Of a DNA stretch of 64,000 nucleotides, positions 5,140-25,709 are shown piece by piece. The stretch lies in NCBI RefSeq assembly GCF_902809865.1, contig NZ_CADDWH010000001.1, positions 3,782,001 to 3,846,000 on the forward strand. The letters are read 5' to 3'. Within the stretch, counting starts at the first letter, position 1, and every line of letters begins with the position of its first letter. Under the pieces are notes generated by a model that made no database searches, had not been told where the DNA came from, and saw nothing but the letters and a program-made list of their open reading frames with translations. The position numbers were made by a program, and so were the translations under genes. The stretch comes from Halobacillus sp. Marseille-Q1614 (GTDB lineage Bacteria; Bacillota; Bacilli; Bacillales; Halobacillaceae).

Positions 5140-5246
5140 GGTACCAGGTACGCCGTCAGCCTCTGATGGTACCTGGTACCAAAAACTTTTTTTCTTTTTT
5201 CTCTGTGTACCTGGTACCGACATAACCATCTCCGGTACCAGGTACC
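5140..5246. repeat. 28-bp-period palindrome array 1, composite
   Basis: Four copies of GGTACCWGGTACC start at 5140, 5168, 5206 and 5234. The first copy ends in G instead of C, and the third begins with T instead of G. The first two and the last two are each 28 bp apart. The middle interval is 38 bp because the T-rich leader TTTCTTTTTTCTCTG (5191-5205) sits between copies two and three. Spacers are 15 unrelated bases. It fills the gap between spoIID and the spoIIQ promoter region. Confidence 0.93.
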
Positions 5247-5396
5247 GCATCTGTGCCCAACAGCATCACCCAACATCATCCAACATCATCCGTCCATCAT
5301 TGGGCGGTTTTTATTTTTTTCCTTTCCAATAAATTTTTTCATCATAATGTATATATTTCCAAAAAAGCGTTCAGAATGACTTTTGAGGTGATGAAC

Positions 5397-6347
5397 ATGA
5401 GAGAGGAAAAGAAAAGCGTAACTAAATTAAAGTTCAAACGCTTGATGCGCAAGAAATGGTTGTTTCCCGCTTTATACCTGGGTGTTGCAGCTTTAGTATT
5501 AGTGGGAGTGTTTTGGTACCAGCAGAGTTCGAATGAAGTAGCTGATCAGTTCAAGGAAGGGCAGAGCCAGGATGATGTGTACGTAGACCAGGATAATCCA
5601 TCCGTACCGGTTACCTCACACAATGAAAACCTGCAAATGCCAGTAGCCGATCAGGAACAAGCCACTGTCGTAACGAAGTTTTTCGATTATGGAGCAACAG
5701 ATGAAGAACAGGAAAGTGCACTAGTCCTTTACAACAATAAGTATTACCAGAGCAAAGGGATCGATATTACGCAAGGAGAAGGTGAAGCTTTTGATGTAAC
5801 AGCTTCTCTTTCTGGAACAGTAACAGAAGTTAAAGAAGATCCGCTTTACGGAAATGTCGTAGAATTAACTCACGGCGAAGAAGTGACAACTGTTTACTCT
5901 AGCTTAGCGGAAGTACAAGTTCAATCTGGTGACGAAGTGAAACAAGGTGATGTACTTGGTCAGTCTGGTCAAAGCTCTTTTGGACAAGACAGCGGTGTAC
6001 ACGTACACTTTGAAGTTCGTAAAAATGGTGAGCCTGTGAACCCTGAATCCTTCTTCGGACAAGCAGCAAGCGCGATTGAAGCACCAGCTGCTGAAGAAGA
6101 AGCTGCCGCTACATCTGAAGAAGACGGAACAGCTGACGAAACTGTGGAAAATGCAGACGAGTCCGCAGAATCCACTGAATCAGATGCCGCTCCTGAAGGT
6201 GAAGAAGGCGTGGAGTCTGAAGGAACACAAACAGACGATAACACAGATGCACCTGCAGAAGAAAATGCAGATGAAGGTACAGAAGAAACAGATCAGCCAG
6301 AATTAGATGAAGATACTTCTTCTTCTAGATCAACTACTCAATCTTAA
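5397..6347 (+). CDS. spoIIQ: Stage II sporulation protein Q, M23-type
   Basis: SpoIIQ is the forespore membrane protein that pairs with SpoIIIAH across the intermembrane space during engulfment. The 316 residues comprise a basic cytoplasmic end, one membrane segment (about 21-40), a LytM/M23 domain (about 105-225) and a very acidic low-complexity tail of about 90 residues that lengthens it relative to the 283-residue B. subtilis protein. HVH at 202-204 keeps the second zinc motif, but the first (HxxxD) reads GIDIT, so the domain is probably catalytically dead as in B. subtilis. The ATG at 5397 fits GAGGTG at 5385-5390. GTATA at 5349 and TTCAGAATG near 5370 may be a sigma-F promoter; this is weak. 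Confidence 0.93.
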   Translation: MREEKKSVTKLKFKRLMRKKWLFPALYLGVAALVLVGVFWYQQSSNEVADQFKEGQSQDDVYVDQDNPSVPVTSHNENLQMPVADQEQATVVTKFFDYGATDEEQESALVLYNNKYYQSKGIDITQGEGEAFDVTASLSGTVTEVKEDPLYGNVVELTHGEEVTTVYSSLAEVQVQSGDEVKQGDVLGQSGQSSFGQDSGVHVHFEVRKNGEPVNPESFFGQAASAIEAPAAEEEAAATSEEDGTADETVENADESAESTESDAAPEGEEGVESEGTQTDDNTDAPAEENADEGTEETDQPELDEDTSSSRSTTQS

Positions 6348-6370
6348 TCAATTAGAAAAACTCATGTGCC

Positions 6371-6402
6371 AAAAATGGAGGCTGCTTCGGTCTCCATTTT
6401 TT
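6371..6402 (+). terminator. Intrinsic terminator after spoIIQ
   Basis: AAAAATGGAG and CTCCATTTTT pair around an 11-base loop and are followed by T residues. The stem lies 24 bases after the spoIIQ stop codon. Confidence 0.88.
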
Positions 6403-6429
6403 CTATGCCTTCTTTTATGGAGGTATTTA

Positions 6430-6541
6430 TTTCTTTTTTCTCTGGGTACCTGGTACCCGCTCACGCTCCTTTGGTACCAGGTACGCCGACGCCGCCTCCC
6501 GGTACCAGGTACACCTTCGTTCAATTTCGGTACCTGGTACC
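6430..6541. repeat. 28-bp-period palindrome array 2
   Basis: The leader TTTCTTTTTTCTCTG (6430-6444) is followed directly by four copies of GGTACCWGGTACC starting at 6445, 6473, 6501 and 6529. They are exactly 28 bp apart, with 15-base spacers of unrelated sequence. Central bases are T, A, A, T. A lone half copy (CGGTACC) lies near 6600. The array lies between the spoIIQ terminator and spoIIID. Confidence 0.95.
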
Positions 6542-6705
6542 TCAAAATAGCGCATAACTGCTGATATTGGTTAATAGAATGATCATAACCGAACTTTCGG
6601 TACCATCCAGGGTGATACAACAAGAGCTTTTCTTCCCAACACAGAGAAAAACCCTAACCCGTCTCAACCACCCCCTTGGATAGTCAATATCAGGAGGCGA
6701 GAGAT

Positions 6706-6984
6706 GTGCATGACTACATCAAAGAACGGACAATCAAGACTGGCGAGTACATTGTAGAGACGAAAAAGACGGTACGCGTGATCGCGAAGGAATTTGGTGT
6801 CTCCAAAAGCACCGTGCATAAAGACCTAACGGAGCGGCTGCCAGAGATCAATGCTTCCCTTGCCAAAGAAGTGAAGAAAATTTTGGAGCACCACAAGGAC
6901 ATCAGGCATTTAAGGGGAGGCGAAGCCACTCGAATGAAATATCAGACGATCGGAAAAGATTCTCCTGCTGAAACCACCAGTTAA
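6706..6984 (+). CDS. spoIIID: Sporulation transcription factor SpoIIID
   Basis: SpoIIID is the small mother-cell DNA-binding regulator that modulates sigma-E and sigma-K genes. The 92-residue protein (93 in B. subtilis) starts at GTG, read as MHDYIKERTIK, eight bases after AGGAGG. A longer frame from 6676 exists but would add residues absent from the family. The helix-turn-helix is VRVIAKEFGVSKSTVHKDL (about residues 23-41). IRHLRGGEAT near residue 70 is the second conserved basic region. It sits between spoIIQ and mbl exactly as in B. subtilis. Confidence 0.97.
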   Translation: MHDYIKERTIKTGEYIVETKKTVRVIAKEFGVSKSTVHKDLTERLPEINASLAKEVKKILEHHKDIRHLRGGEATRMKYQTIGKDSPAETTS

Positions 6985-7045
6985 AATGGAGCGGTATCCT
7001 CCCGACGAATTACCCCCTCCCGAAATGGAACTTTTTTCTTAAGAA

Positions 7046-7074
7046 TTTACACGAATGTTGCAAATTTATGATAG
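7046..7074 (+). promoter_or_regulatory. Possible sigma-A promoter of mbl
   Basis: TTTACA (7046-7051) is followed 17 bases later by TGATAG (7069-7074). The overlapping TATGAT would give a 15-base spacer. The region is AT-rich and lies 84 bases before the mbl start codon. Confidence 0.4.
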
Positions 7075-7157
7075 AATATAGAATTAGATGTGCGATTCTT
7101 TAGAAGAATATAAAGTGTGAAGCAGCTTTTTTTAGAAATAGGGAGGATCTACTCAAG

Positions 7158-8159
7158 ATGTTTGCTAGAGATATTGGAATTGACTTAGGTACAGCGAACG
7201 TACTGATACATGTAAAAGGGAAGGGTATTGTCCTTAATGAGCCTTCTGTTGTCGCGATGGACCGTAACACAGGCAGGGTTCTTGAAGTAGGTGAAGCAGC
7301 TCGCCGAATGGTAGGACGTACACCAGGAAACATCGAAGCGATTCGACCTTTAAAAGATGGGGTTATTGCCGATTTTGATGTGACTGAAGCGATGCTGCGT
7401 CACTTTATTCAAAAGACGAACGTTAAAGGATTCCTGTCGAAGCCGCAAATGCTGATCTGCTGTCCGACGAACATTACAAAAGTCGAGCAGAAAGCGATTC
7501 GTGAAGCGGCAGAGAAGTCAGGCGGCAAGAAGGTGTATTTAGAAGAAGAACCAAAAGTGGCAGCGATTGGAGCCGGGATGGATATTTTCCAGCCGAGCGG
7601 TAACATGGTCGTCGACATCGGTGGCGGGACGACAGATGTGGCCGTGCTCTCGATGGGAGATATCGTAACGGCTTCTTCTATTAAAATGGCCGGGGACAAG
7701 TTCGATAGCGAGATTTTAAATTACATTAAAAAGACGTACAAGCTGCTGATTGGTGAGCGTACGGCGGAGAACATTAAATTAGAAGTAGCGACGGTTTTTA
7801 AGGGCTCCCGTAATGAAGAGGTTGAGATTCGCGGCCGTGATATGGTGTCAGGCCTGCCGCGGACGATTTCGGTGAATTCTGAAGAAATTGAAGGGGCTCT
7901 GCACGAGTCTGTGCAATCGATCATACAAGCGGCCAAGTCCGTGCTTGAGCGTACTCCGCCTGAGCTTTCTGCGGACATTATTGACCGCGGCGTTATCCTG
8001 ACAGGAGGGGGAGCGCTTCTGCACGGCATCGATCAGCTGCTGGCCGAAGAGTTGAAAGTTCCTGTTTTCATAGCGGAAGATCCAATGGACTGTGTCGCCA
8101 AAGGGACAGGCATTATGCTTGATAACATCGATAAAATCACTCGTAATAAAATTGGATAA
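7158..8159 (+). CDS. mbl: MreB-like cell-shape protein Mbl
   Basis: Mbl is an actin homologue that forms membrane-associated filaments and guides lateral wall synthesis. The 333-residue protein starts MFARDIGIDLGTANVLIHV, which holds the phosphate-1 loop. Also visible are VDIGGGTTDVAVLS (phosphate 2) and ILTGGGALLHGIDQLL (adenosine loop). The ribosome site GGGAGGA lies about 10 bases upstream. The position after spoIIID and the length identify it as mbl rather than mreB or mreBH. Confidence 0.97.
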   Translation: MFARDIGIDLGTANVLIHVKGKGIVLNEPSVVAMDRNTGRVLEVGEAARRMVGRTPGNIEAIRPLKDGVIADFDVTEAMLRHFIQKTNVKGFLSKPQMLICCPTNITKVEQKAIREAAEKSGGKKVYLEEEPKVAAIGAGMDIFQPSGNMVVDIGGGTTDVAVLSMGDIVTASSIKMAGDKFDSEILNYIKKTYKLLIGERTAENIKLEVATVFKGSRNEEVEIRGRDMVSGLPRTISVNSEEIEGALHESVQSIIQAAKSVLERTPPELSADIIDRGVILTGGGALLHGIDQLLAEELKVPVFIAEDPMDCVAKGTGIMLDNIDKITRNKIG

Positions 8160-8176
8160 TACAAGGGGCGATCGTC

Positions 8177-8960
8177 TTGCTGAGAGGATTTAACACGGCA
8201 GCGGCAGGCATGATGGCCAGCCAGCGCATGCAGGAAACACTTTCGAACAACATGACGAACTCAAGCACGCCAGGATACAAAGCAGATTAAGGCACATTGC
8301 GGGCTTTTCCAGAGTTACTGATTCAAGAAATGGGAGGAACCACTATTCCAACAAGCAGGGGAGGAATTACGCTTCCGGCCAGGAATGAAGTCGGTTCTCT
8401 CAACACCGGTGTTTACCTGCAGGAAACCGTGCCTGAATTTTCTCAGGGCGATTTAAGGGAGACAGGCCAGACGACAGATCTGGCTCTCTTAAATGGCAGT
8501 TTACCTGACGAGGCAGGATTTCTGTTTTTTAATGTTCAAAATGAAAACGGGGAGATCCCTACACTCGAAACGGGAATTTCTCCGTAGATCTTGAGGGTTT
8601 TTTGACGACGAATCAGGGCTATTATGTGCTCGATAACGACGGAAACCCGATTCAGACGAACGGACTTGGTTTTACCGTACAGAACAACGGCGCGATCATA
8701 GCAGATGGACAAGAAGTCCTTCTTGGTTTATCTTACACGCCTAATGCGTTCGATATGATAAAAGAAGGAAATAATTTATTTACCCCCGCCGAAGGTGTCA
8801 TGCAGAATGCGCGTGAAACGGCCGCCGGTTTTGTAGTGAAGCAGAAGCAGTCAGAAGGTTCGAACGTTGATCCTGCCCGGACGATGACGGAAATGATGAA
8901 TACATACCGTACATTTGAGATGAATCAGCGAGCGTTGAAGGCTTATGACCAGAGCCTGCA
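8177..8960 (+). pseudogene. flhO: Decayed flagellar basal-body rod gene flhO
   Basis: This sequence reads as FlhO, a FlgG/FlgF-type rod protein of the flagellar basal body. It starts at TTG 8177 (MLRGFNTAAAGMMASQRMQ) after AAGGGG. Codon 38 is TAA at 8288, in the context KAD-stop-GTLRAFPELL, where the family has Gln, so a single C-to-T change would explain it. Near 8557 a base is missing: ENGEI is followed out of frame by YTRNGNFSVDLEGFLTT. The 3' end is fused after AYDQSL to the middle of flhP. At least three lesions make a working product unlikely. Confidence 0.9.
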
Positions 8961-9409
8961 TCAGGCAATTTTTACATTAACGCCCTTGAAAATGGACAAG
9001 TAATGCTGGCGACATCCGCCGGTGAGCCGATCCTTTGGGCAAATGAAGAGCCAATAGTTCTGACAGGGAATATGGAAGACATTGCGTTTCGCGTAGATGG
9101 TTCGGTCATGGTGACGCGTAATGGAGTGTCAGCTGTCGAAGGTCGGCTTGGCGTGATCGAAGCTGTATGGCCAAGAATGCTTGAATCAGCAGGAGCTAAT
9201 CGTTTTCGGCTGCCTGAAGGCATAGAGCCTGGTGGAATTTTACAGCAGGTAGACGCCCAGATAGTCACGGGAACTCTCGAATCTTCTAATGTCGATTTAG
9301 CGCGGGAAATGACGGAATTACAAATTGTACAGCGAGCCTAAGAATTTACCTCTCGTTCGATATCCACGGGAGACCAGATGATGGGCTCGTCAATCAGTTA
9401 AGATCATAA
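8961..9409 (+). pseudogene. flhP: Decayed and truncated flagellar gene flhP
   Basis: This is the remainder of FlhP, the partner rod protein. The N-terminal third is missing; similarity begins at NFYINALENGQVMLATSAG near 8967, joined directly to flhO. The frame runs to EMTELQIVQRA, then TAA at about 9339 replaces the expected Tyr. The family C-terminus EFTSRSISTGDQMMG continues in the same frame, and one missing base near 9384 shifts the last residues LVNQLRS. A deletion, a nonsense change and a frameshift are all visible, so this is dead together with flhO. Confidence 0.88.
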
Positions 9410-9427
9410 AGTAAGGAGATAATATCG

Positions 9428-9676
9428 ATGGCAATAGAGGAGAAACAACTAAGAAAACCAAAAAAAGAGAAGAAGCCAAAGGCGCGGCAGCCAAGAGCAG
9501 AAAGGCGCCGCATGATACCCATTTGGCTCCGGATCGTAATTGTACTCGTTCTTAGTGTTGTGGCCCTCGCTACGGGTCTGATGATCGGATATGGGGTACT
9601 CGGCGACGGTAATCCGACCGATGCTCTTAAATGGTCCACCTGGCAGCAGATCATCGATATCATGTCAGGCAAATAG
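9428..9676 (+). CDS. EpuA-like small membrane protein
   Basis: This 82-residue protein matches the EpuA family, often mis-annotated as an RNA polymerase beta-subunit fragment and of unknown function. It has a strongly basic N-terminus (residues 5-30, Lys/Arg/Glu rich), one membrane helix (about 33-53) and the conserved end GYGVLGDGNPTDALKWSTWQ followed by IIDIMSG. The ribosome site GTAAGGAG precedes the ATG. It lies between the flhP remnant and a strong terminator, which is the usual place for the family next to mbl and flhO/P. Confidence 0.8.
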   Translation: MAIEEKQLRKPKKEKKPKARQPRAERRRMIPIWLRIVIVLVLSVVALATGLMIGYGVLGDGNPTDALKWSTWQQIIDIMSGK

Positions 9677-9680
9677 AATA

Positions 9681-9712
9681 AAAAAACACGAGCCTTTGAG
9701 CTCGTGTTTTTT
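9681..9712 (+). terminator. Intrinsic terminator after the epuA-like gene
   Basis: AAAAAACACGAGC pairs with GCTCGTGTTTTTT around a short loop. It starts five bases after the stop codon. Confidence 0.9.
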
Positions 9713-9954
9713 AGTTTGTAGAAAAACCTCATGCTTTTGGACGACCGGCTTTTCTTTCAAAGGATCGATACTTCCTAAGGGCTTCGGGAAAGGGATCCTT
9801 TGAAGTAGGCGTAAGGTGAGCTTCCTGAAGGCTTAAGCCTTGTTGGGGCTTCGGATCATTCGTTTTTTAAGCAGGAGTCTCGTGTAGATAAGCTTCTCCT
9901 AACTAGATCTATCCTGATTTTTAGTGAGATGTTTATAAACTCCGTGTTATTCGA
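9713..9954. other. Structured intergenic gap
   Basis: I see no gene here. TTCAAAGGATC (9756-9766) and GATCCTTTGAA (9794-9804) form an 11-bp inverted repeat. AAGGCTTAAGCCTT (9828-9841) is a perfect 14-bp palindrome. These may be remnants of a repeat element or a terminator region for the convergent lipoprotein gene. Confidence 0.4.
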
Positions 9955-10362
9955 TTATTTTACTGCGTCGATGACTGGACTTTCAATAAGGGGAGTGCCA
10001 TCCTCATCAGTCCCTTGATAAGTGCCAAAAACTTCGACGATCTCGCCGGTTTGATAATCAGCATCTTTTGCCATACTTTCCACGGTATACGTTCCGTAGC
10101 CATCCTCTTCTTTCGTAGTTACGGTGAAAATGCTTGATTCAGTTCCCTCCTCCTCTGTGATCCCTCCTATAATAGATACTTTTTCACCAATTTCTACTTT
10201 CCCGGCATTTATAGCTGCGAAATCAATGGCTGTCGCTTCTTCTCTTAGTTTCTCATTCAATTCCTGCTGGGTAGGTTTTTCTTCAATCGTTTCATTTGCA
10301 CTTGTACTTTGTGAGCAGCCAATAAGTGTAGCTAATCCAACAATGATTAAGTATTTTTTCAT
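9955..10362 (-). CDS. Putative lipoprotein with OB-fold-like domain
   Basis: This is a 135-residue predicted lipoprotein. The N-terminus MKKYLIIVGLATLIGCSQS has a lipobox with Cys16. A polar linker follows, then a beta-rich segment (KVEIGEKVSIIGGI, TYTVESMAKD, EIVEVFGTYQG) resembling the tRNA_anti-like OB folds found in small Bacillus lipoproteins. I did not recognise a specific family. The start is the ATG at 10362, preceded by GGAGGGTCGAGGA; the frame extends 18 codons upstream without a ribosome site. It faces the epuA-like gene tail to tail. Confidence 0.7.
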   Translation of the reverse strand: MKKYLIIVGLATLIGCSQSTSANETIEEKPTQQELNEKLREEATAIDFAAINAGKVEIGEKVSIIGGITEEEGTESSIFTVTTKEEDGYGTYTVESMAKDADYQTGEIVEVFGTYQGTDEDGTPLIESPVIDAVK

Positions 10363-10572
10363 TCCTCGACCCTCCATGAAGTTCTTATAAGCCTTAATTC
10401 TATATTTTACATCCAATCCCTTTGAAAGAAATTGTCGGCAGCCGAATAAAGTTACGACACGTCTCGCTAAAAAACCGAGCCTGTGAGAGTAGGGGATAGA
10501 GGCAGGCCATTGTTATATTTCAATAACCATATTCATAAAGAATAAGAAGATAAAATATAAGGGGCTGGAGAA

Positions 10573-11277
10573 ATGAGTGTAAATTACAGAAGATGGTCAT
10601 CATATCCCTATCAAGGAGAGCAAGCCCCGCCTACAGCTTATCCTGCGCCAGCGTATTATCCGATGTTTTTTATGATTAGGCAGGAAAATGGATTCCTGGA
10701 TCCCTATGGAAAGCGTATTAATTGGCAAATTAAAAATCCTGCTGAGGTGAATTGGGGTACAGAGTTATCGATTGTCGAAAGAATATTATCCTCCCTGACA
10801 CCTCAAAATATCCAAATGGCACAATACTGGGGAAATTCTGAAGCTGCTCAGAATATGATTCCTATGATTTTCAATTTAGCCAAAAAATATAGGCTCGGTT
10901 CGCCATATACGGCTAGAATTCTTGGATATTTTAACGCTGCAGTGAATGATGCCTTTGTGGTGTCGTGGTATTTTAAATACCTTTGGGATGTGGCACGTCC
11001 TAATCAATATGACAGAAACCTGCCTCCCGTTCTGCCTACCCCGCGTTTTCCTTCCTATCCTTCCGCACATGCCGCTGTAGCAGGGTGTGCAGAATCCGTA
11101 TTGACTTATTTCTTTCCACCCGAAGCCGCAGGAATAAAAAAGGTAATGGAAGAGTGCGCCAAATCCCGTTTGTATGCGGGCGTCCATTTTAAAGTGGATA
11201 ATGATGAAGGGTTGAGATTAGGCAGGCAAATTGGAGATATAGTTGTAAGCGTTTTGGAAAACCAAAAACCTGAATAG
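10573..11277 (+). CDS. PAP2 / vanadium haloperoxidase-like protein
   Basis: This 234-residue protein carries the three-part phosphate/vanadate-binding signature of the PAP2-haloperoxidase superfamily. Motif 1 is KYLWDVARP (about residues 135-143), motif 2 is PSYPSAHAA, and motif 3 is SRLYAGVHFKVDNDEG. Bacillus homologues are usually called vanadium-dependent haloperoxidases, but phosphatase activity cannot be excluded from sequence. There is no clear signal peptide; the first 25 residues are Pro/Tyr rich (YPYQGEQAPPTAYPAPAYYP). It appears monocistronic. Confidence 0.8.
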   Translation: MSVNYRRWSSYPYQGEQAPPTAYPAPAYYPMFFMIRQENGFLDPYGKRINWQIKNPAEVNWGTELSIVERILSSLTPQNIQMAQYWGNSEAAQNMIPMIFNLAKKYRLGSPYTARILGYFNAAVNDAFVVSWYFKYLWDVARPNQYDRNLPPVLPTPRFPSYPSAHAAVAGCAESVLTYFFPPEAAGIKKVMEECAKSRLYAGVHFKVDNDEGLRLGRQIGDIVVSVLENQKPE

Positions 11278-11382
11278 GTATACGGCTGAATTAAGCGGAA
11301 AATCGGGCCGGCCCTAAGGTTTCTTATCCCTTATTTTGTGGAATTACCTCAGTATTAGAAAAAACAGGGGGGAGGGAAGCCT

Positions 11383-12693: not shown

Positions 12694-12711
12694 AAACAAA
12701 GGAGTCATCAT

Positions 12712-13785: not shown

Positions 13786-13878
13786 CTGTATTGTTGATTT
13801 TTTCGGGAACATCGCTTGCTTTCCGCTTGCGAACCGCCAAAGAAAATATCAAGCAGGTAATCAAATAAACGACAAATT

Positions 13879-13918
13879 AAATAAACCGTAGCGCCTGTTT
13901 TGCCGCTACGGTTTATTT
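13879..13918. terminator. Bidirectional terminator
   Basis: AAATAAACCGTAGCG (13879-13893) pairs perfectly with CGCTACGGTTTATTT (13904-13918). The right arm overlaps the stop codon of the minus-strand membrane-protein gene. It can serve both that gene and the methyltransferase operon. Confidence 0.8.
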
Positions 13919-14052
13919 CTGCCACGAACAACTTTCATAATGATCACAATCGCTGCGACAATAAGCAGTAAATTAATAAAACCGCCCGCTATGTCGAGCA
14001 CAAGACCTAACAGCCAGATCACAAGGATGATGGCAACAATAGTCCAAAGCAT
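13906..14052 (-). CDS. Lmo0937-family small membrane protein
   Basis: This 48-residue protein begins [20 protein letters not shown] and continues [20 protein letters not shown], two adjoining membrane helices with a basic end. It matches the Lmo0937/DUF5670 family of tiny stress-associated membrane proteins in Firmicutes. The function is unknown. AAAGGAGGACC lies 5-7 bases before the ATG, a strong ribosome site. The gene is divergent from fabZ. Confidence 0.85.
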
Positions 14053-14141
14053 GGATGGTCCTCCTTTTCTTAGAAAAAATTCGTTCTTTAACTCCTTTTC
14101 CTAAAACGAACGAGTCGAAACCTTCCGCTTGCGAAAAAACT

Positions 14142-14170
14142 TTGTCCTTTCGGAAGGCTGCCTTTATAAT
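14142..14170 (+). promoter_or_regulatory. Sigma-A promoter of fabZ
   Basis: TTGTCC (14142-14147) and TATAAT (14165-14170) are separated by 17 bases. CCTTCCG (14121-14127) and CGGAAGG (14151-14157) form an inverted repeat that brackets the -35 box and could be an operator. Confidence 0.7.
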
Positions 14171-14201
14171 AGGAGTAGTTTGTACGGAAAGGAGCTTTTT
14201 T

Positions 14202-14624: not shown

Positions 14625-14633
14625 CAGGGAGAA

Positions 14634-16046: not shown

Positions 16047-16060
16047 CTATTTCAATCTAC

Positions 16061-16091
16061 ATAACCGCCGGGGTTCCGGCGGTTATTTTTA
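16061..16091 (+). terminator. Intrinsic terminator
   Basis: ATAACCGCCGG (16061-16071) pairs with CCGGCGGTTAT (16076-16086) and is followed by TTTTT. It lies 14 bases after the upstream hypothetical gene. Confidence 0.9.
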
Positions 16092-16116
16092 TGAGAGGGA
16101 AGGGAAGAGGAGTTTT

Positions 16117-16200
16117 TTTCTTTTTTCTCTGTGTACCTGGTACCGGAAATAAGAGAACCGGTACCAGGTACTACACCTCTCCCCATCGGTACCAGGTACC
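16117..16200. repeat. 28-bp-period palindrome array 3, upstream of RAYT
   Basis: The leader TTTCTTTTTTCTCTG (16117-16131) is followed by three palindromes starting at 16132, 16160 and 16188, exactly 28 bp apart. The first begins with T instead of G, and the second ends in T instead of C. Spacers are 15 bases. The array ends about 60 bases before the transposase start codon. Confidence 0.95.
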
Positions 16201-16263
16201 ACCAAAAGTACAACCAATAATCGGTTTATAGTATAATGGTGGAAAACTTATTGGAGGTGCTAT

Positions 16264-16806
16264 ATGCCAAGAGGTAAACGAATCTGGTATCCGGGCGCGA
16301 TGTACCACATCACCGCAAGAGGAAATCGAAAGGAAAATATCTTCTTAAGCGACTATGACCGAATGAAGTATCTGGCTACCATTCAAAAAGTAAAAACTAA
16401 GTTTCGCTTTAATCTTCACGCCTACTGTTTAATGAGCAACCACATCCACTTATTGATTGAAACCACTCAGTTTCCCCCAGGAAAAATCCTTCATCTGCTT
16501 CACCTCAACTACTCTAAATACTTCAATAAGAAATACGATCATGTCGGCCATTTATTCCAAGGCAGGTACTGGGATAAGCTAATCATGAATCGCTATTACT
16601 TCACGAAAGCCTGCAGTTACATCCATCTGAACCCCTCAACCGCAAACCTTCTTGATGAAGAAAACAGTCCGCTCTGGTCTTCCCACTATTACTATGCCAA
16701 CAACGAATCCGACCCCTTAATCACAAAAGAACTGCTTCTCGCCTACATTGACGCCCTCTCCTATGACGAATGGTACAAACTTCAGCAATTTGAAAACAAA
16801 AAGTGA
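16264..16806 (+). CDS. REP-associated tyrosine transposase (RAYT)
   Basis: This 180-residue protein belongs to the Y1_Tnp/RAYT group, single-copy transposase relatives that act on REP palindromes. It shows the N-terminal RIWYPGAMYHITARGNRKEN and the metal-binding HIH pair at residues 60-62 (LMSNHIHLLIE). The tyrosine helix is LNYSKYFNKKYDHVGHLFQG, with Tyr83 or Tyr86 as the likely nucleophile. CSYIHLNPSTANL follows. It appears complete. TTGGAGGTG precedes the ATG and TATAAT lies at 16232-16237. Palindrome arrays lie directly on both sides, the arrangement expected if these arrays are its substrate. Confidence 0.9.
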   Translation: MPRGKRIWYPGAMYHITARGNRKENIFLSDYDRMKYLATIQKVKTKFRFNLHAYCLMSNHIHLLIETTQFPPGKILHLLHLNYSKYFNKKYDHVGHLFQGRYWDKLIMNRYYFTKACSYIHLNPSTANLLDEENSPLWSSHYYYANNESDPLITKELLLAYIDALSYDEWYKLQQFENKK

Positions 16807-16831
16807 AGCCTCATATTCCATTTTCTGTTTT

Positions 16832-16943
16832 TTTCTTTTTTCTCTGTGTACCAGGTACCGAAAGTGTCCCTCTTGGTACCAGGTACACAGTAGAGAGGTG
16901 TCGGTACCAGGTACGCCGAAAAGAAAAACCGGTACCTGGTACC
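16832..16943. repeat. 28-bp-period palindrome array 4, downstream of RAYT
   Basis: The leader TTTCTTTTTTCTCTG (16832-16846) is followed by four palindromes starting at 16847, 16875, 16903 and 16931, all 28 bp apart. Central bases are A, A, A, T. The array starts 26 bases after the transposase stop, in the same orientation as array 3. Confidence 0.95.
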
Positions 16944-17117
16944 CACCATCAGCACCGGTGTAACGATTTTCACCCACCATACAACTGTCACATCCGCCCC
17001 TGTCGAAACCTTGCATACCCCCTCGAATTTTAGTAACATTATCCATATCTATGACCACCCAGTCACCATCAGTCGCACACCATTTTGCCACATATACATA
17101 GGAGAGGAAGACAACTC

Positions 17118-18461: not shown

Positions 18462-21400
18462 GTGAAGCTCGTCAATCTCTCAGTTAAACGCCCGGTCGGC
18501 GTCATTATGGTCATAGCGGCGATCCTGGCCCTCGGGTTCGTGTCGCTGCGATCACTTACGATCGATCTATATCCAGACATTGATTTGCCGGTTGCCGTCG
18601 TTTCTACGACTTACGAAGGAGCGGCACCGCAGGAAGTCGAGCGGCTCGTCAGCCAGCCGATTGAATCATCCGTCAGCGCCATCGAAGGAATGGAAGTGCT
18701 CCAGTCCCAGTCTCAAGCTGGCGCTTCGCTTATTTTTATGCAGTTTAGCACGGGAACCGATCTCGACAGCACCTTGCTTGAAGTAAGGGAGCGGGTCGAC
18801 CAGGTGAGAGAAGCTCTTCCTGAAGGAGCGGGTGAACCAAGCGTGCTGCGCTTTGATCCCCAGCAGCTGCCGATTATGACGGTCGGTCTCTCAGGAGCAG
18901 AGCCGGAGCAGCTTCAGCAGATCGCTGAAGACCAGATCATCCCGCAGCTTGAACGTCAGGAAGGGGTCGCTTCGATCGATATTGAAGGCGGCAAGACACG
19001 CGAAGTTCAGATCTTCATCGACCGATCCTTAATGGCGAACTATGAACTTACCTCTGATCAGATTGTGCAGGCCCTTAATGCGTCGAACCAGTCGGCTTCC
19101 GCCGGCTCGATTCAAAAAGGGGATCAGGACCTGCAAATTCGGGTTGAAGGGGAATATGACTCCATCGAAGATATCGAAGAAACGATCGTCCAATCGCCAT
19201 CAGGCGCACAGGTGACGATTGATCAAATCGCCAAAGTTCAGGAAACCTATGAAACGGATAACGTCTCCCAGGTGAACGGTGAGGAATCCGTGGCGCTTTC
19301 GATTTTGAAAAAAACCGACGCCAACACGGTAGAGACTTCTGATAACGTGCGTGAAGCTCTAGATGAAATCAAAGGAGACCTTCCGGAGAACGCGAATACG
19401 GAAATCATCCTTGATACAAGCGAATTCGTTAAAATTTCCATCAACAGTGTGGTTATCAACATCATCATCGGCGGGATTATCTCTGTCGCTGTTCTGATGC
19501 TGTTTTTAAAAAGCGTTCGGGCGACGCTCGTTATCGGGATTTCGATACCGATCGCAATTATTTCCACGTTTATTATGATGTATTTTACCGGCGAAACGCT
19601 CAACGTCCTGACGATGGGCGGCATGGCGCTTGGAATCGGGATGATCGTCGACAGTTCGATCGTAATTTTAGAAAATATCGTCAGCTACCGGCAAAAAGGA
19701 CACAACATGGTGGAGTCGGCCAAACTCGGAGCCTCTGAGCTCGCTCCCGCCGTTATCGCCTCGGCCACAACGACACTCGTTGTCTTCTTGCCGATTATAT
19801 TCGTAGAAGGGATCGCGTCCGAGCTGTTCACACCGCTTGCGCTCACGATTTCCTTTGCACTGATCGCATCACTCGCCGTATCTGTCACACTTGTGCCGAT
19901 GCTGTCCTCAAAGCTTTTAACAAAACCATTGCAGACAAGCGGACGCCGCTACTGGTTCGACCGCTTCTTAAATTACGTGAATAACAAATATCGCACGCTG
20001 CTGTCGCGCGTGCTGAAGTGGCGCAAAACAACGGTCGCCGCGACGCTCGCCTTAATTGCAGGGTCAATTGCACTTGTTCCGTGGATCGGCACGGAGTTCA
20101 TCCCGCCATCTGACCAGGGACAGATCACGATCTCTGTCGACATGCCGGCCGCCACGTCGCTTGAAAGCACACAGGAGACGACCGACACTATCAATGAACG
20201 GCTGGAAAACTTCAGCGATGAAATTGAGGTCAGCTACCTGACGATCGGCGGCGGAATGTTTGGGGGACCTGGGGGAGGCGGAGCAAATGACAGTGCGGAT
20301 TACACCCTCCAGCTGGTCGCCCCTGATGAGCGGGAGCGCACGACCCAGCAGGTGATGAAAGAGATCGATGAGTCACTTCAGGACATTCCTGGCGCTGATA
20401 TTGCTGTCAGCGAGCTCGAAGCCGGACTTGGTACGGGAGCTCCGCTTGAGATAAAAATTAACGGAAATGAATACGAAGTGCTCGATGAACTTTCACAGCA
20501 AATAGTCTATATGATGGAAGACATTGAAGGCGTCAGCGCTCCGACGTCCAGTACAGAAGAGGGACGCCCGGAGATGCAGATCAACGTCGATCATCAGCGT
20601 GCTGCGCAGTACGGCTTAACCGAGCAGCAGGTGATCGGCCAGGTGCAGACCGCTTTTACCGGACAGATCGCGACACGCTACCGCGAAGCTGGAGAAGAGA
20701 TTAACGTTTCGTTAATTTTACCGGAGGAACAGCGTCAGACGATTGCCGACCTAGAAGGCATGTCCCTGCAGACACCAACAGGAAGCGTCATTCCACTGGC
20801 TACGGTCGCTGACTTAGAGCAGGTGCAAGGACCCGTCTCCTTACAAAGGGAAGACCAGCAGCCGCAAGTCAACGTGGAAGCGGAAGTTGTCGACCGCGAC
20901 CTCGGAAGTGTCACAGAAGACGTGAGAGCTGAGCTTGAGCGCCTGAATTTTCCTGATGGATATACGTATGAAATCGGTGGTCAGGCCCAGGACATGGAGG
21001 AAGCCTTCGGTGACCTCGCGCTTGCTCTTGTGTTCTCGATCTTTCTCGTCTACGCCGTAATGGCCGTGCAGTTTGAGAACTTCCTGTTTCCTTTTATCAT
21101 CATGTTCTCACTGCCGGCCACGATCATCGGCATCACCGGTGGTCTGTTTATCACCGGCCTGTCGTTCAGTCTGCCGGCGTTTGTCGGGATTATCATGCTC
21201 GCCGGAATCGTCGTCAACAACGCCATAGTGCTCGTCGACTATATCAATATTCTAAGGCGGCGCGGCTACGACCGGACCGAGGCTATTTTGGATGCGGGCC
21301 CAAGCCGTCTGAGACCAATTTTGATGACCACCTTAACGACCGTCTTGGGCATGGTGCCGCTTGCGATCGGAATCGGACAGGGATCCGAAGCCCAGCAGCC

Positions 21401-21539
21401 GCTCGCGGTGACGATTATCTTCGGCTTAACCGTATCAAGCTTCTTTACACTCATCTTAATTCCAGTCGTCTATACGTATTTCGACGACCTATCACAAAAA
21501 ATCACAGGCTTCTTCCGCAAAAGACGCGATGAAGTTTAA
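18462..21539 (+). CDS. RND-family efflux permease
   Basis: This 1025-residue permease has the AcrB-type layout: one membrane helix, a large extracellular porter loop (about 35-330), six helices, a second loop (about 540-850) and five to six more helices. The family opening is VKRPVGVIMVIAAILALGF and the start is GTG. It is a proton-driven exporter of drugs, lipids or surfactants; B. subtilis SwrC is the best-known relative. In the fourth helix the proton-relay pair is VDSS (Asp397, Ser398) rather than the VDDA of AcrB, so one acidic residue is replaced. A glycine-rich insert, FGGPGGGG, lies near residue 605. Confidence 0.93.
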   Translation: MKLVNLSVKRPVGVIMVIAAILALGFVSLRSLTIDLYPDIDLPVAVVSTTYEGAAPQEVERLVSQPIESSVSAIEGMEVLQSQSQAGASLIFMQFSTGTDLDSTLLEVRERVDQVREALPEGAGEPSVLRFDPQQLPIMTVGLSGAEPEQLQQIAEDQIIPQLERQEGVASIDIEGGKTREVQIFIDRSLMANYELTSDQIVQALNASNQSASAGSIQKGDQDLQIRVEGEYDSIEDIEETIVQSPSGAQVTIDQIAKVQETYETDNVSQVNGEESVALSILKKTDANTVETSDNVREALDEIKGDLPENANTEIILDTSEFVKISINSVVINIIIGGIISVAVLMLFLKSVRATLVIGISIPIAIISTFIMMYFTGETLNVLTMGGMALGIGMIVDSSIVILENIVSYRQKGHNMVESAKLGASELAPAVIASATTTLVVFLPIIFVEGIASELFTPLALTISFALIASLAVSVTLVPMLSSKLLTKPLQTSGRRYWFDRFLNYVNNKYRTLLSRVLKWRKTTVAATLALIAGSIALVPWIGTEFIPPSDQGQITISVDMPAATSLESTQETTDTINERLENFSDEIEVSYLTIGGGMFGGPGGGGANDSADYTLQLVAPDERERTTQQVMKEIDESLQDIPGADIAVSELEAGLGTGAPLEIKINGNEYEVLDELSQQIVYMMEDIEGVSAPTSSTEEGRPEMQINVDHQRAAQYGLTEQQVIGQVQTAFTGQIATRYREAGEEINVSLILPEEQRQTIADLEGMSLQTPTGSVIPLATVADLEQVQGPVSLQREDQQPQVNVEAEVVDRDLGSVTEDVRAELERLNFPDGYTYEIGGQAQDMEEAFGDLALALVFSIFLVYAVMAVQFENFLFPFIIMFSLPATIIGITGGLFITGLSFSLPAFVGIIMLAGIVVNNAIVLVDYINILRRRGYDRTEAILDAGPSRLRPILMTTLTTVLGMVPLAIGIGQGSEAQQPLAVTIIFGLTVSSFFTLILIPVVYTYFDDLSQKITGFFRKRRDEV

Positions 21540-21549
21540 TAGATAGAAA

Positions 21550-21590
21550 GAAAACCCCACGGCCATCAAGGCCGTGGGGTTTTCTTTCTT
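21550..21590 (+). terminator. Strong terminator after the RND operon
   Basis: GAAAACCCCACGGCC (21550-21564) pairs perfectly over 15 bp with 21570-21584. The T-rich tail is the beginning of the array 5 leader. Confidence 0.93.
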
Positions 21591-21690
21591 TTTTCTCTGG
21601 GTACCTGGTACCAGAATTCTCTCATTCAGTACCAGGTACACCTTCTGTGGTCACCGGTACCAGGTACCGACGTTCTTAGTACCAGGTACC
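21585..21690. repeat. 28-bp-period palindrome array 5
   Basis: The leader (21585-21599) starts on the base after the terminator stem. Palindromes start at 21600, 21628, 21656 and 21678. The first two intervals are 28 bp; the last is 22 bp with a 9-base spacer. The second and fourth copies begin AGTACC instead of GGTACC. Confidence 0.93.
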
Positions 21691-22095
21691 TCCAAAATGA
21701 ACTCCCAATATTTATCATTAAATATATTAAATTGATGTAAAGTTTAATTTTTCCTTAATTTTTTCAAAGCAAAGACAAAATGTAAGCGCTGATGAAATAT
21801 TTGCGTTCGGGACCTTTCGATTATCTCCATGTTTTAACCATAAAGAAGAAAGCCCAGGTTAGAATAAATACTTATAATTAACTAGTATAATAGCATTGTT
21901 TAAATGGTTTAATTTGGGTTATTATCCTTTAGAAATAAATATAAATGAGTCTATAAAATCAAAAGAATCGTGTAAATGTTTTTTTATCCGTGTGTAACCT
22001 ATGCACGGGTTTTATTTAGTATATTGATCAACGGTTTATTTATAAATACTTCTTATGGGACAGGCTGTCGTTTACGAAGGATATGGAGGTTAACC
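21691..22095 (+). promoter_or_regulatory. Long AT-rich leader of the first pgs locus
   Basis: No gene is visible. TGTAAGCGCT near 21781 is the left half of a CcpA cre-like site, but the right half is poor. TATAAT lies at 21886-21891 with a weak -35. A small hairpin (CCGTGT with GCACGG, about 21988-22008) followed by TTTTATTT lies about 80 bases before pgsB and might attenuate transcription. Confidence 0.35.
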
Positions 22096-23289
22096 ATGAT
22101 AGTTGCACTCATTTTTATTTTGATATTAAGTTTGACTGCTTTCTTACTTGGGGCCAGGGAGAAAGTGAGAAACAACAAAAACATAGAAAGTATCCCGGTA
22201 CGGGTCAATGTGAATGGCATTCGAGGAAAATCGACGGTGACGCGGTTAACCACAGGGGTTTTACAGAAGGCCGGTTACAAAACCGTAGGGAAAACGACAG
22301 GAACTGATGCGCGGATGCTTTACTGGTTTGATGGCCAGGAAGAGCCGATTAAGAGAAGAATGGAAGGCCCGAACATCGGCGAGCAGCGGAAAGTGCTGGA
22401 ACAGACGGTGAAGCTGAATGCGGATGCGCTTGTCAGTGAATGCATGGCGGTTAAGCCGGATTATCAAGTCATTTTCCAGGAACAGCTTCTGCAGGCGAAT
22501 ATCGGTCTAATCGTAAACGTGCTCGAGGATCATATGGACGTGTTAGGGCCGACGCTGGAGGAGGTCGCGGATTCCTTCGGGGAGGCGATCCCGTATGATG
22601 GCGATTTAATCGTCAATGACAGCTCGTTTGTGCCTCATTTTAGAGAAATCGCAGCAGAGCGGAATACGAAGGTACATGTATGTGATACATCGCTTGTATC
22701 CGAAGACTTTTTGAAAAAATTCGAGTACATGGTCTTCCCGGAAAATGCCGCACTGGCTCTTGCTGTGGCGGATATTTTAGGGATTGACCATGAAACAGCC
22801 AAGCAGGGAATGCTTGAAGCCTGGCCGGACCCAGGGGCGATGCAGATCCTGCCGATCGGGGATGAAGATAACCCAAGCTTTCTAGTCAACGGGTTTTCAG
22901 CGAATGACCCGACATCGACACTCAACATCTGGGAGCGGGTGAAACTGTTGAGCTATCCGACAGAAGAGCCTGTAGTGATTATGAACTGCCGCGAGGACCG
23001 TGTTGATCGGACGGAACAATTTGCGAAACAGGTACTGCCGCACTTACCGGCAGAAACGTTAATTTTGATGGGAGAGACAACAGCGCCGATTGTTGATGAG
23101 CATAAAAACGGTGCACTGCCTGTCAAAAACCTTTTAGATCTGGAAAGTTATGAAACCGAAGAAATCGTGCGGGTCCTCGGCCCGTACCTGTCTGGCAAAA
23201 CCATTTATGGCATCGGAAATATACATGGCGGTGCCGAGGAACTCGTAAAACGGCTTGAACAGAAAAAAATAGATAAAGTTACGGCATAG
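22096..23289 (+). CDS. pgsB: Poly-gamma-glutamate synthase PgsB/CapB, copy 1
   Basis: PgsB is the ATP-dependent amide ligase of poly-gamma-glutamate synthesis, related to Mur ligases and acting at the membrane with PgsC and PgsA. The 397-residue protein has an N-terminal membrane helix (MIVALIFILILSLTAFLLG), the P-loop [18 protein letters not shown] (about 39-56) and the conserved [15 protein letters not shown] and YGIGNIHGGAEELV segments. TGGAGGT precedes the ATG at 22096; the frame continues upstream without a ribosome site. It heads the first of two pgs loci in this window. Confidence 0.95.
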   Translation: MIVALIFILILSLTAFLLGAREKVRNNKNIESIPVRVNVNGIRGKSTVTRLTTGVLQKAGYKTVGKTTGTDARMLYWFDGQEEPIKRRMEGPNIGEQRKVLEQTVKLNADALVSECMAVKPDYQVIFQEQLLQANIGLIVNVLEDHMDVLGPTLEEVADSFGEAIPYDGDLIVNDSSFVPHFREIAAERNTKVHVCDTSLVSEDFLKKFEYMVFPENAALALAVADILGIDHETAKQGMLEAWPDPGAMQILPIGDEDNPSFLVNGFSANDPTSTLNIWERVKLLSYPTEEPVVIMNCREDRVDRTEQFAKQVLPHLPAETLILMGETTAPIVDEHKNGALPVKNLLDLESYETEEIVRVLGPYLSGKTIYGIGNIHGGAEELVKRLEQKKIDKVTA

Positions 23290-23303
23290 AGAGGAAATTC
23301 AAT

Positions 23304-23780
23304 ATGTTTATATTTGATACAGCAGATGTTTATTTGGCTTTAGTTGCCGGAATCGTTCTCAGCTTATTTTATACAGAAAAAACGGGCGTCCTTCCAGCAG
23401 GATTGGTCGTACCAGGGTATATTGCCATGTTGTTTACGTTCCCGGTGAGTATTGCAGTTATTTTTATGATTAGCTTTTTAACTTATTTAATCGTTATGAA
23501 GGTCATCGCCAAGTTCACCATTCTTTATGGTAGAAGAAAATTCACGGCGATGCTGACCGTCGGCATTATTTTGAAAATTACGTTCGACTTAGTCGTCCCG
23601 GGGTATTCCACTCCGGCGATCGTAGAGGGAATGATGGCAATTGGCGTCATAATCCCAGGACTTATTGCCAATACTATCCAGAAGCAAGGGGTTTTACCGA
23701 CGACAGCAAGTACATTATTGCTCAGTGCGGTAACCTTTGGAATCGTGACATTATCCAGCTTTATTGGAGGAGGAATCTAA
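23304..23780 (+). CDS. pgsC: Poly-gamma-glutamate synthesis protein PgsC/CapC, copy 1
   Basis: PgsC is the polytopic membrane subunit of the synthase. The 158 residues form about five membrane helices. They include the family stretches SLFYTEKTGVLPAGLVVPGY and LYGRRKFTAMLTVGII near the middle, and VIIPGLIANTIQKQGVLPT near the end. GAGAGGAAATTC precedes the ATG. The stop codon abuts the start of the small PgsA-like gene. Confidence 0.95.
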   Translation: MFIFDTADVYLALVAGIVLSLFYTEKTGVLPAGLVVPGYIAMLFTFPVSIAVIFMISFLTYLIVMKVIAKFTILYGRRKFTAMLTVGIILKITFDLVVPGYSTPAIVEGMMAIGVIIPGLIANTIQKQGVLPTTASTLLLSAVTFGIVTLSSFIGGGI

Positions 23781-23945
23781 ATGGAAGCAGTTCTACAATA
23801 TAAAAAGAAGAAAAGGGTTGAAGAGAAACTTACATTCAGCCAGTGGATGTTAAAAACGATCAAAAAACATAAGAAAAGGACAACGACCGATGCCACTATC
23901 GGATTCATCATTACGGCTGTCCTCTTTTTAATTAATTTGGTATAG
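23781..23945 (+). CDS. PgsA-like membrane stump, 54 residues
   Basis: This small gene sits exactly where pgsA should be. It starts on the base after the pgsC stop, with GGAGGAGGAATC inside the pgsC end as ribosome site. The product has a basic part (KKKKRVEEKLTFSQWMLKTI, then KKHKKRT) and one membrane helix (GFIITAVLFLINLV). That is the pattern of the PgsA N-terminus: B. subtilis PgsA reads ELSFHEKLLKL then a Lys run, and copy 2 here reads VKEKILKQVKWHKKRA. The external CapA domain is absent. It may be a minimal anchor subunit or a relic kept by selection. Confidence 0.75.
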   Translation: MEAVLQYKKKKRVEEKLTFSQWMLKTIKKHKKRTTTDATIGFIITAVLFLINLV

Positions 23946-23949
23946 GGAA

Positions 23950-25593
23950 ATGTTAAAAAATAACCGTTTCAACATCTTGATCATCAGCTTGTTTGTCGTG
24001 ATTTTTGTTTTGTTAATTATCCAAGGCCGTGGCGATGAACGTCAGGAACAGGAGGATTTCACTCTTAACGATACAGCACCTGAGGAAGAAGGCGTGGAAT
24101 CGTACGGAGTCACCTCAGATAGTAAGATTGCGACTGAAGTAGGAACGAAGGTATTGGAACAAGGCGGCAATGCCGTCGATGCGGCTATCGCCGTAAGCTA
24201 TGTGTTAGGGGTCGCCGAACCCTATGGATCAGGAATCGGTGGAGGCGGAACGATGCTCATTCACCCTGAAAAAGGCAGCGAAAAGTCCCCCGCCATTTAT
24301 GATTACCGTGAAACGGCGCCAGAGTCCATCCCAGAAAGCGGGATAGGGGTGCCAGGTTTTGTAAAAGGTATGGATGAAGTACATGAAGATTTCGGAACCA
24401 TGGATATGGGACAGCTCATTGAACCATCGATTAACTTCGCCAGCAATGGAGTGGCCGTTTCACAAACCTTGCATAATCGGTTAAAAGATGCACAGCACCG
24501 TATGCCGGAGTTAGACCATATGTATCCTGAGGGGGAACCAATCGGTGAAGGTGAAATCCTGGTTCAGCAGCAGCTGGCCGACACGTTAAAAGCAATTAAA
24601 GACGCAGGCCCGAATGCATTCTATAAGGGCGACACTGCGGATGAAATAAAGGACGAAGAAGAAAAAATAGATAAAGAAGATTTGAAGGAATATGAAGTCG
24701 AAGTCAAAGAACCGATCGAAGGCGAGTTTAGCGGCTATGACGTATTAGCACCGCCCCCGCCATCCGGCGGTATCATGCTGCTTCAAAACTTAGAAATGGC
24801 CGAGCTGCTTGAAATCGAAGAGACGAAAGATAAACCGCTCGATTTTGCGATGATGATGGGGATGATCAACCGGGTCAGCTACAGTGACCGCTTAGATAAA
24901 GTAGGAGATCCAAGCTATGAAGATGTCCCGGTCAAAGAGATGCTGTCAAAAGATCATCTAAAAAATCTCGCTTCCGATATCGATGAATCCGGCTTGTCTG
25001 AAAAATATCGGACGAAGCTCGATTCAGATGCGGATCTTGAGGATCACGAAAACACGACTCATTTTGTCGTCGTTGATAAAAATGGCATGATGGTATCTGT
25101 GACAAACACACTCAGCAATTTCTTTGGATCCGGCGAATATGTGAATGGCTTTTTCCTAAACAACCAGCTGAAGAACTTCAGCAACAGCGAAGATTCACCG
25201 AACAGCCCAGAGCCAGGAAAACGCCCATTCAGCTATACAACACCAGCCATCTTAGCCAAAAATGGAAATCCCGTAATAGGAATTGGAGCTTCCGGCGGAC
25301 GCAGAATTACGTCCATGGTGTCCCAGCAGCTCGTAAAAATGATCAAATTTAACGAACCTGTTCAGTCATCGGTCGAAGAACCCCGGTCATTTTTGGAATT
25401 CGATAAAGATACACTGCAAGTCGAAAGTGACTATGTCTTTTTAGAGGATCCCGAAAAACACGGAATTGATATTGAATATTCTGACAGGACGACGTACTTT
25501 GGAAGTGTCCAGGGATTAGTGATCGACTATGAAAACAACAAAATCTACGGAGCCAGCGACCCGAGAAGACAGGGCAGCTGGGAATCCGAGTGA
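23950..25593 (+). CDS. capD: CapD-like gamma-glutamyltranspeptidase, copy 1
   Basis: CapD-type enzymes cleave and transfer poly-gamma-glutamate chains outside the cell, anchoring capsule or releasing polymer. The 547-residue precursor has an N-terminal membrane anchor (about 8-24) and the GGT fold beginning GVTSDSKIATEVGTKVLEQG. The self-processing site is NTTHFVVVD, where Thr369 is the predicted nucleophile that starts the small subunit. Substrate-binding NTLSNFFGSG and GASGGRRI follow. The ATG lies four bases after the PgsA-like stump. A terminator fused to array 6 ends the operon. Confidence 0.93.
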   Translation: MLKNNRFNILIISLFVVIFVLLIIQGRGDERQEQEDFTLNDTAPEEEGVESYGVTSDSKIATEVGTKVLEQGGNAVDAAIAVSYVLGVAEPYGSGIGGGGTMLIHPEKGSEKSPAIYDYRETAPESIPESGIGVPGFVKGMDEVHEDFGTMDMGQLIEPSINFASNGVAVSQTLHNRLKDAQHRMPELDHMYPEGEPIGEGEILVQQQLADTLKAIKDAGPNAFYKGDTADEIKDEEEKIDKEDLKEYEVEVKEPIEGEFSGYDVLAPPPPSGGIMLLQNLEMAELLEIEETKDKPLDFAMMMGMINRVSYSDRLDKVGDPSYEDVPVKEMLSKDHLKNLASDIDESGLSEKYRTKLDSDADLEDHENTTHFVVVDKNGMMVSVTNTLSNFFGSGEYVNGFFLNNQLKNFSNSEDSPNSPEPGKRPFSYTTPAILAKNGNPVIGIGASGGRRITSMVSQQLVKMIKFNEPVQSSVEEPRSFLEFDKDTLQVESDYVFLEDPEKHGIDIEYSDRTTYFGSVQGLVIDYENNKIYGASDPRRQGSWESE

Positions 25594-25597
25594 TAGG

Positions 25598-25631
25598 AAA
25601 AGCGGAGTTTTCAGACTCCGCTTTTTTTCTT
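25598..25631 (+). terminator. Intrinsic terminator of the first pgs locus
   Basis: AAAAGCGGAGT (25598-25608) pairs with ACTCCGCTTTT (25615-25625). The T run is supplied by the array 6 leader, which starts at 25626. Confidence 0.92.
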
Positions 25632-25709
25632 TTTTCTCTGGGTACCAGGTACCGATGGAGAGCATTCCGGTACCAGGTACCACCGTCGCTGCTATCGGTA
25701 CCTGGTACG
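25626..25709. repeat. 28-bp-period palindrome array 6
   Basis: The leader (25626-25640) is followed by three palindromes starting at 25641, 25669 and 25697, exactly 28 bp apart; the last ends in G. The array ends one base before the stop codon of the convergent hydrolase gene, so it fills the whole gap between two gene ends. Confidence 0.95.

Follow-up and report, generated by a model that had tools for sequence, protein, structure and literature searches.

Fixed-period palindrome arrays around a RAYT-like Y1/HUH transposase gene in Halobacillus

The 64-kb window analysed here, the whole stretch from 3,782,001 to 3,846,000 of contig NZ_CADDWH010000001.1 of Halobacillus sp. Marseille-Q1614, carries six arrays of the 13-bp palindrome GGTACCWGGTACC and, between arrays 3 and 4, a gene for a Y1/HUH transposase that resembles the tyrosine transposases associated with repetitive extragenic palindromic (REP) sequences, called RAYTs or TnpAREP (Table 1). 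With up to two mismatches allowed, the palindrome was found 22 times (10 exact copies, 11 with one mismatch and 1 with two), all within 5140-25709, and shuffled sequences gave 0.39 copies. Intervals within the arrays are 28 bp in 14 of 16 cases, the remaining two being 38 and 22 bp, and the last base of the 14 spacers is C in 11 and T in 3. A 15-base leader is present in six exact copies, all on the plus strand. The first-pass annotation had reported the six clusters, their period, the pyrimidine at the spacer ends and the lack of palindromes in 26-64 kb; all its ranges and counts were reproduced, no copy was found past 25,709, and its view of the arrays as real, far from chance, of fixed period and provided with a leader is upheld. 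It had also placed the leader directly before a palindrome, which holds for the six exact copies, but the leader of array 1 lies inside the array, before the third unit, and not in front of it.

Table 1. Positions of the palindrome arrays, their leaders and the transposase gene in the 64-kb window
Feature	Positions	Strand	Content and setting
Array 1	5140..5246	+	four palindromes, intervals 28, 38, 28; after spoIID
Leader of array 1	5191..5205	+	within the 38-bp interval
Leader of array 2	6430..6444	+	
Array 2	6445..6541	+	four palindromes, 28 x 3; between spoIIQ and spoIIID
Leader of array 3	16117..16131	+	
Array 3	16132..16200	+	three palindromes, 28 x 2; immediately before the transposase gene
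Transposase gene	16264..16806	+	RAYT-like Y1/HUH, 180 aa
Leader of array 4	16832..16846	+	
Array 4	16847..16943	+	four palindromes, 28 x 3; immediately after the transposase gene
Leader of array 5	21585..21599	+	behind a terminator-like hairpin
Array 5	21600..21690	+	four palindromes, intervals 28, 28, 22
Leader of array 6	25626..25640	+	behind a terminator-like hairpin
Array 6	25641..25709	+	three palindromes, 28 x 2; after a gamma-glutamyltranspeptidase gene

The 180-amino-acid (aa) product of the transposase gene matches Y1_Tnp (E 3e-13), the only Pfam domain on it, and the source genome has no other match to this family. H60, H62 and Y119 were invariant in 12 of 12 aligned relatives, and the protein shows the motifs NHIH, HLFQ and YIHLNP, from which Y119 is predicted to be catalytic. 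Among PDB entries, the structure predicted from 12 aligned sequences (pLDDT 87.7) most resembled 4er8_A, in which a REP-associated tyrosine transposase is bound to a REP hairpin (TM 0.67/0.72, E 2.3e-8, 16% identity), and the next structural matches were the transposases of IS608, IS200 and ISDra2. No sequence match was obtained at E 0.001. The arrays had been set apart from REP sequences and bacterial interspersed mosaic elements; a classical GTAG-tagged REP is indeed absent, but the gene between two of the arrays is of the REP-associated type. No sigma-70-like promoter was found in 16047-16300, and we therefore make no claim that the gene regulates itself through array 3.

With up to one mismatch allowed, the palindrome was counted 82 times in the source genome (3,981,759 bases in three contigs; G000 in our numbering) and its reversed pattern once. 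With up to two mismatches, 34 pairs lie exactly 28 bp apart, and the reversed control gave none. All 12 exact leaders directly adjoin a palindrome, as do 4 of the 11 one-mismatch leaders (101272, 200771, 241507 and 2088991); the reversed control of the leader has 5 matches. Cluster anatomy was counted in fetched stretches, which make up part of the genome, with palindromes at up to one mismatch. These stretches contain 89 core palindromes in 41 clusters, 27 of which have at least two units, and some of the single-unit clusters will be chance matches. Their intervals are 28 bp (33 times), 38 bp (6), 27 bp (2), 22 bp (1), 7 bp (3, overlapping units) and 50, 53 and 62 bp (once each), with the leader or a variant of it inside the 25-base stretch of the 38-bp intervals. 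The longer form TTTTTTTCTTTTTTCTCTG has 10, 2, 1 and 4 exact copies in the fetched stretches of G000 and the relatives G001, G002 and G009, and NGTACC comes next every time. None of the 27 multi-unit arrays is wholly within an open reading frame (ORF) of at least 100 codons in a mechanical ORF set; 26 have an ORF on both sides, with 15 between same-strand, 4 between convergent and 7 between divergent ORFs. The plus strand had been described as invariable for the leader, which is true of the window and of 3.72-3.81 Mb, but further leaders on this chromosome, at 0.10-0.28 Mb, lie on the minus strand. A replication-strand rule was rejected, as both leader strands occur though the sampled stretches all have positive GC skew and lie on one side of dnaA (3.214 Mb), and co-orientation with the gene on the left of the leader gave a mixed pattern. 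A second palindrome-ended element was also seen, in which two palindromes 50-53 bp apart enclose an interior of the form gaaa...tttc (C1:3262673 in L073 and C1:3156417 in L071 of G000), and G001 has three copies 159 bp apart (L116:14631, 14790 and 14949).

Exact 28-bp pairs of GTACCWGGTAC were counted in 150 genomes, the source genome included, and were found in nine of them (G001 54, G000 29, G043 16, G002 8, G009 5, G026 3, G028 3, G036 1 and G038 1), while the reversed control gave 0 in all 150. Neither random spacing nor an absence of arrays from relatives, the two outcomes that the first-pass annotation had named as speaking against it, was observed. The best matches to the transposase are in G001 (72%), G002 (69%), G009 (68%), G026 (55%, with one stop), G029 (55%) and G028 (54%), and the remaining ones among the matches listed reach at most 52%. 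In these six closest relatives found, which belong to Halobacillus or its family, palindromes flank the transposase gene on both sides in the genome's own form: TGTACCWGGTACA in G001, a mix of GTACCSGGTAC and GTACCWGGTAC in G002 and G009 (in the fetched arrays the centre is G or C in 14 of 31 units for G002 and in 15 of 24 for G009) and GTGCCWGGCAC in G026, G028 and G029. The 28-bp pairs are present in 6 of 7 genomes with a close transposase versus 3 of 143 without (p 4e-8, or 6e-7 leaving out the source genome), the exceptions being G029, which has the GTGCC form instead, and G043, G036 and G038.

Arrays after spoIID, before spoIIID and on the flanks of the transposase gene are shared by G000, G001, G002 and G009, and that gene has the same neighbours in the four genomes, which points to vertical descent. 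The sites C1:204610 and C1:200730 have at least one unit in each of the four, and the leader-plus-palindrome part of the C1:200730 query was found at 14 places in G001, 9 in G002 and 4 in G009 (row count) and at none in G003 and G007. The block conserved after 204610 has arrays at its far end in G001, G002 and G009 and none in the 200 bases read there in G000, and the leader at C1:200730 is in G000 on the side opposite to that in the other three. G003 has no array at these three sites and G007 none at the two sites read. These site differences among species indicate that arrays are gained, lost or turned round, which alone is no proof of transposition. Near arrays 5 and 6, two adjacent paralogous gene sets (21976-25593 and 26610-31094) are of the Mur-ligase/PgsC-like/gamma-glutamyltranspeptidase type; G001 shows the second only (40 kb fetched), and in G002 and G009 the first comes after the second, with an array still behind its last gene. 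The part of the window from 36001 to 64000 has a G+C content of 0.38-0.41 after 40 kb against 0.45-0.50 in the first 36 kb; the palindromes end at 25,709.

A wider scan of named genomes covered the best 80 of 225 loci, 75 of them with full flanks. An 11-mer repeated at least three times lay beside the transposase gene at 48 of the 75 loci, above every one of 20 shuffles, and on both flanks at 42, and no such repeat was found beside the gene at the other 27. Motif similarity is correlated with protein similarity (Mantel r 0.361, 0 of 2000 permutations, 41 loci). In Rossellomorea, Bacillus salacetis and one Bacillus strain, the genes adjoin 25-bp arrays of GAGCCAGGCTC, GTGCCAGGCAC or GTACCWGGTAC. 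R. aquimaris (G111) contains 74 copies of GAGCCWGGCTC, against 1 for the reversed control and a single copy each in G026, G028 and G029, and 62 of the 69 intervals in its 14 fetched stretches are 25 bp. One of its arrays (L250, C3:282700-284200) has 21 units at exactly 25 bp with near-identical spacers and is probably young; its second transposase locus, L184, has no repeated 11-mer alongside, unlike L177 of the same genome. When 27 chosen proteins were placed on a tree, those of the 28-bp group formed one clade (support 0.99 in FastTree and 96 in IQ-TREE) and those of the 25-bp group a separate one (0.98 and 99). Since GTACC and GTGCC palindromes are both present in both clades, the period goes with the protein in these two clades and the palindrome sequence does not.

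The position of the gene between arrays, the co-variation of palindrome and protein, the period by clade and the conservation of the palindromes described below lead us to consider it likely that the arrays are cognate sites of the Y1/HUH transposase at 16264-16806, probably as non-autonomous elements that are, or once were, mobile; that the enzyme binds, cuts and moves them is what we infer from these features. Alternatively, the palindromes may be operator sites that a regulator or nucleoid protein binds in double-stranded form, the transposase gene being merely one location among others. Perfect dyads between genes, the seven of 26 arrays between divergent genes and the arrays of G043, where no transposase was detected, would agree with such sites, but palindrome form and period track the transposase protein across two clades and each of the six closest relatives has palindromes at its transposase gene. 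The DNA helix has 10.5 bp per turn, and intervals of 28 and 25 bp equal 2.67 and 2.38 turns, which would not bring neighbouring units onto one face. We consider operator sites unlikely.

An action of the arrays in RNA, as terminators, attenuators or stabilisers of mRNA ends, is in our estimate very improbable. Leaders do stand directly behind a terminator-like hairpin more often than other T-runs (18 of 41 versus 110 of 436, p 0.015, four genomes), and long hairpins are possible when folded with DNA parameters. The array, however, sits behind the terminator and has its own T-run on the 5' side, the arrays between divergent genes do not suit such a function, and the tie to the transposase clade would be left unexplained.

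The claim that the spacers share no sequence was too strong. GAGAG/CTCTC occurs in 9 of the 33 15-nt spacers of the source genome (5000 shuffles gave 1.2 on average and 6 at most), and the spacers end in C (21), T (9), A (2) or G (1). Arrays with near-identical spacers were found in G028 (9 units), G029 (7, one spacer apart), R. vietnamensis (17), B. salacetis (15) and R. aquimaris (21). G028 and G026 share an orthologous array of six units. Between its two versions, differences were counted at 19 of 73 spacer positions, at 4 of 78 palindrome positions, each of the four being in the last unit (p 5e-4 against the spacers), and at 130 of 444 fourfold sites of the two flanking genes (p 0.68 against the spacers); two of four listed frames were used for the fourfold count, the other two overlapping them on the opposite strand. 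In a pair of units compared by eye between G038 and G028, both 11-base cores are unchanged and the 15-base spacer has 3 differences. Spacer hypermutation, suggested by the G026/G028 alignment, was rejected because the flanking fourfold sites diverge equally. Given the near-identical spacers in some arrays and the drift at the neutral rate, the arrays are read as starting from tandem copies, and the "unique" spacers are most plausibly tandem repeats that have drifted apart. Intervals without a leader (13-45 bp) are still 28 bp in 33 of 36 cases in G000, 21 of 22 in G001, 20 of 20 in G002 and 14 of 14 in G009, and because length is stable while letters drift, the interval length appears to be constrained. 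Plain tandem repeats from replication slippage, without a role for the transposase, would explain the near-identical spacers of G028, R. vietnamensis, B. salacetis and R. aquimaris but cannot place an identical leader and palindrome at many separate sites, keep palindromes while spacers drift or link sequence and period to the protein, and we give this origin hardly any credence.

If the arrays are cognate sites of the transposase, the unit would fold in single-stranded DNA, where a lone 13-mer may form a CWG loop on a 5-bp stem (-1.8 kcal/mol with DNA parameters) and two neighbouring palindromes may pair into a 13-bp stem with a 15-nt loop (-10.9 to -14.2 kcal/mol for four two-unit stretches, DNA parameters). 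A stem extending into the spacers was rejected, with 55 spacer-end pairs, below the expected 68.9. The transposase would bind the folded unit and cut near the leader foot TTCTCTG, whose CT dinucleotides offer a possible cut site by analogy with E. coli TnpAREP, which, in the passages of PMC8266576 compared, cuts between C and T, 5' or 3' of the REP. Arrays would start as head-to-tail copies of the 28-bp unit, after which the spacer letters would drift and the palindrome and unit length would be kept.

Several observations weigh against the arrays being cognate sites of this transposase. The protein reaches 68.1 bits with the NCBIfam REP_Tyr_transpos model, under the cut-off of 80. Adjacent centre bases are complementary beyond chance in G009 (11 of 14, p 7e-5) and near composition expectation in the source genome (17 of 33), G001 (12 of 21) and G002 (4 of 20). 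The best spacer-to-spacer match in the source genome is 11 of 15 and none is near-identical, so there is no sign of recent copying, orthologous arrays were counted fully in one pair, and the leader follows no replication-strand rule. G043, a draft of about 1000 contigs, has 16 pairs and no transposase match, and in G036 and G038 a single pair each goes with distant transposase matches only. For G043, a lost gene, an assembly gap and contamination are options.

The period may have a function of its own and be fixed by the transposase. Whichever palindrome is used, this branch of RAYTs would then build or keep multi-hairpin arrays with a ruler specific to the clade, of 28 bp in Halobacillus and of 25 bp in Rossellomorea and B. 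salacetis, and the arrays would be fixed-spacing platforms for several enzyme molecules, with the one-sided leader as loading or cutting site. We put this forward tentatively, as possible though on balance doubtful. Two loci run against a simple period rule, namely that of Metabacillus arenae (L159), which has intervals of 25, 26 and 26 bp and is outside both clades, and L155, the nearest relative of the 28-bp group, which has no such period. In the literature passages compared, no ruler or platform mode was met for REP or terminal inverted repeat (TIR) elements.

The comparison with known systems draws on selected passages of the cited papers. The motifs of the protein fit TnpAREP subclass 2.1 (Bertels group 1), for which Table 1 of PMC6006769 gives NH-u-H, FQ and Y[IV]HLNP. 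The window protein has FQ and Y[IV]HLNP, an assignment by motif alone, but the I of its NHIH is not among the letters listed for u, and subclass 2.1 proteins have a C-terminal helix-turn-helix-like extension and a median length of 238 aa in that source, whereas the window protein has 180 aa and Y1_Tnp only. In the passages compared of the same paper, automatic and manual searches found no REP-like sequences with subclasses 2.1 and 2.3; the Halobacillus gene, in contrast, has palindrome arrays. TIRYT genes (TIRtrons) carry TIRs, many with GGGGWSAS, and some dispersed TIR families are in dimers or clusters (PMC3733652), which resembles the Y1/HUH gene with repeats on both flanks described here. 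GGGGWSAS had 110 copies at 45 loci in the flanks of the 75 loci, versus 11 in one shuffle each, and among six Halobacillus-clade loci (the window's own not among them) it was absent from four and had one copy in two. Unlike TIRs, the Halobacillus units are 13-bp self-complementary palindromes without GGGGWSAS, with a 28-bp period and a one-sided leader.

As in a REPtron, a single-copy transposase gene is flanked by its own dispersed intergenic palindromes. Among group 3 REPs there are short perfect palindromes whose arms are separated by 3 or 4 nt (PMC8266576). REPIN spacers are also highly diverse (PMC8049555) and the spacers here look drifted, so that differing spacers, one of the reasons given in the first-pass annotation, do not set the arrays apart from REP-like systems. 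The GT[AG]G hairpin foot of REPs is absent, the conserved foot here being CTCTG. In relation to REPINs, the units are self-complementary, and G009 alone among four genomes has centre bases inverted more often than chance would give. Tandem REPIN clusters of Pseudomonas have longer, nearly identical units (PMC3116915), whereas the tandem units here are 25 or 28 bp. CRISPR arrays are similar in having one repeat, differing spacers of equal length and an AT-rich leader on one side, but their repeats are 24-48 bp in the passages compared, against 13 bp here, where 27 small clusters are dispersed and spacers drift by substitution between relatives.

GGTACCTGGTACC had no occurrence in the open-licence PubMed Central literature, and GGTACCAGGTACC had none among the matches listed for five other palindrome forms; in the same literature, no report of these 25- or 28-bp arrays was recognised in the titles and abstract starts among the matches listed. 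Along the protein tree the palindrome changes independently of the period, and the systems therefore provide natural pairs for locating the residues that read the palindrome and those that set the spacing. A TnpAREP subclass described without a REP-like partner in the passages of PMC6006769 compared appears to have one in Bacillaceae, in the form of strictly periodic arrays, and these systems bear on how and why such transposase genes are kept, a question raised in the same paper.

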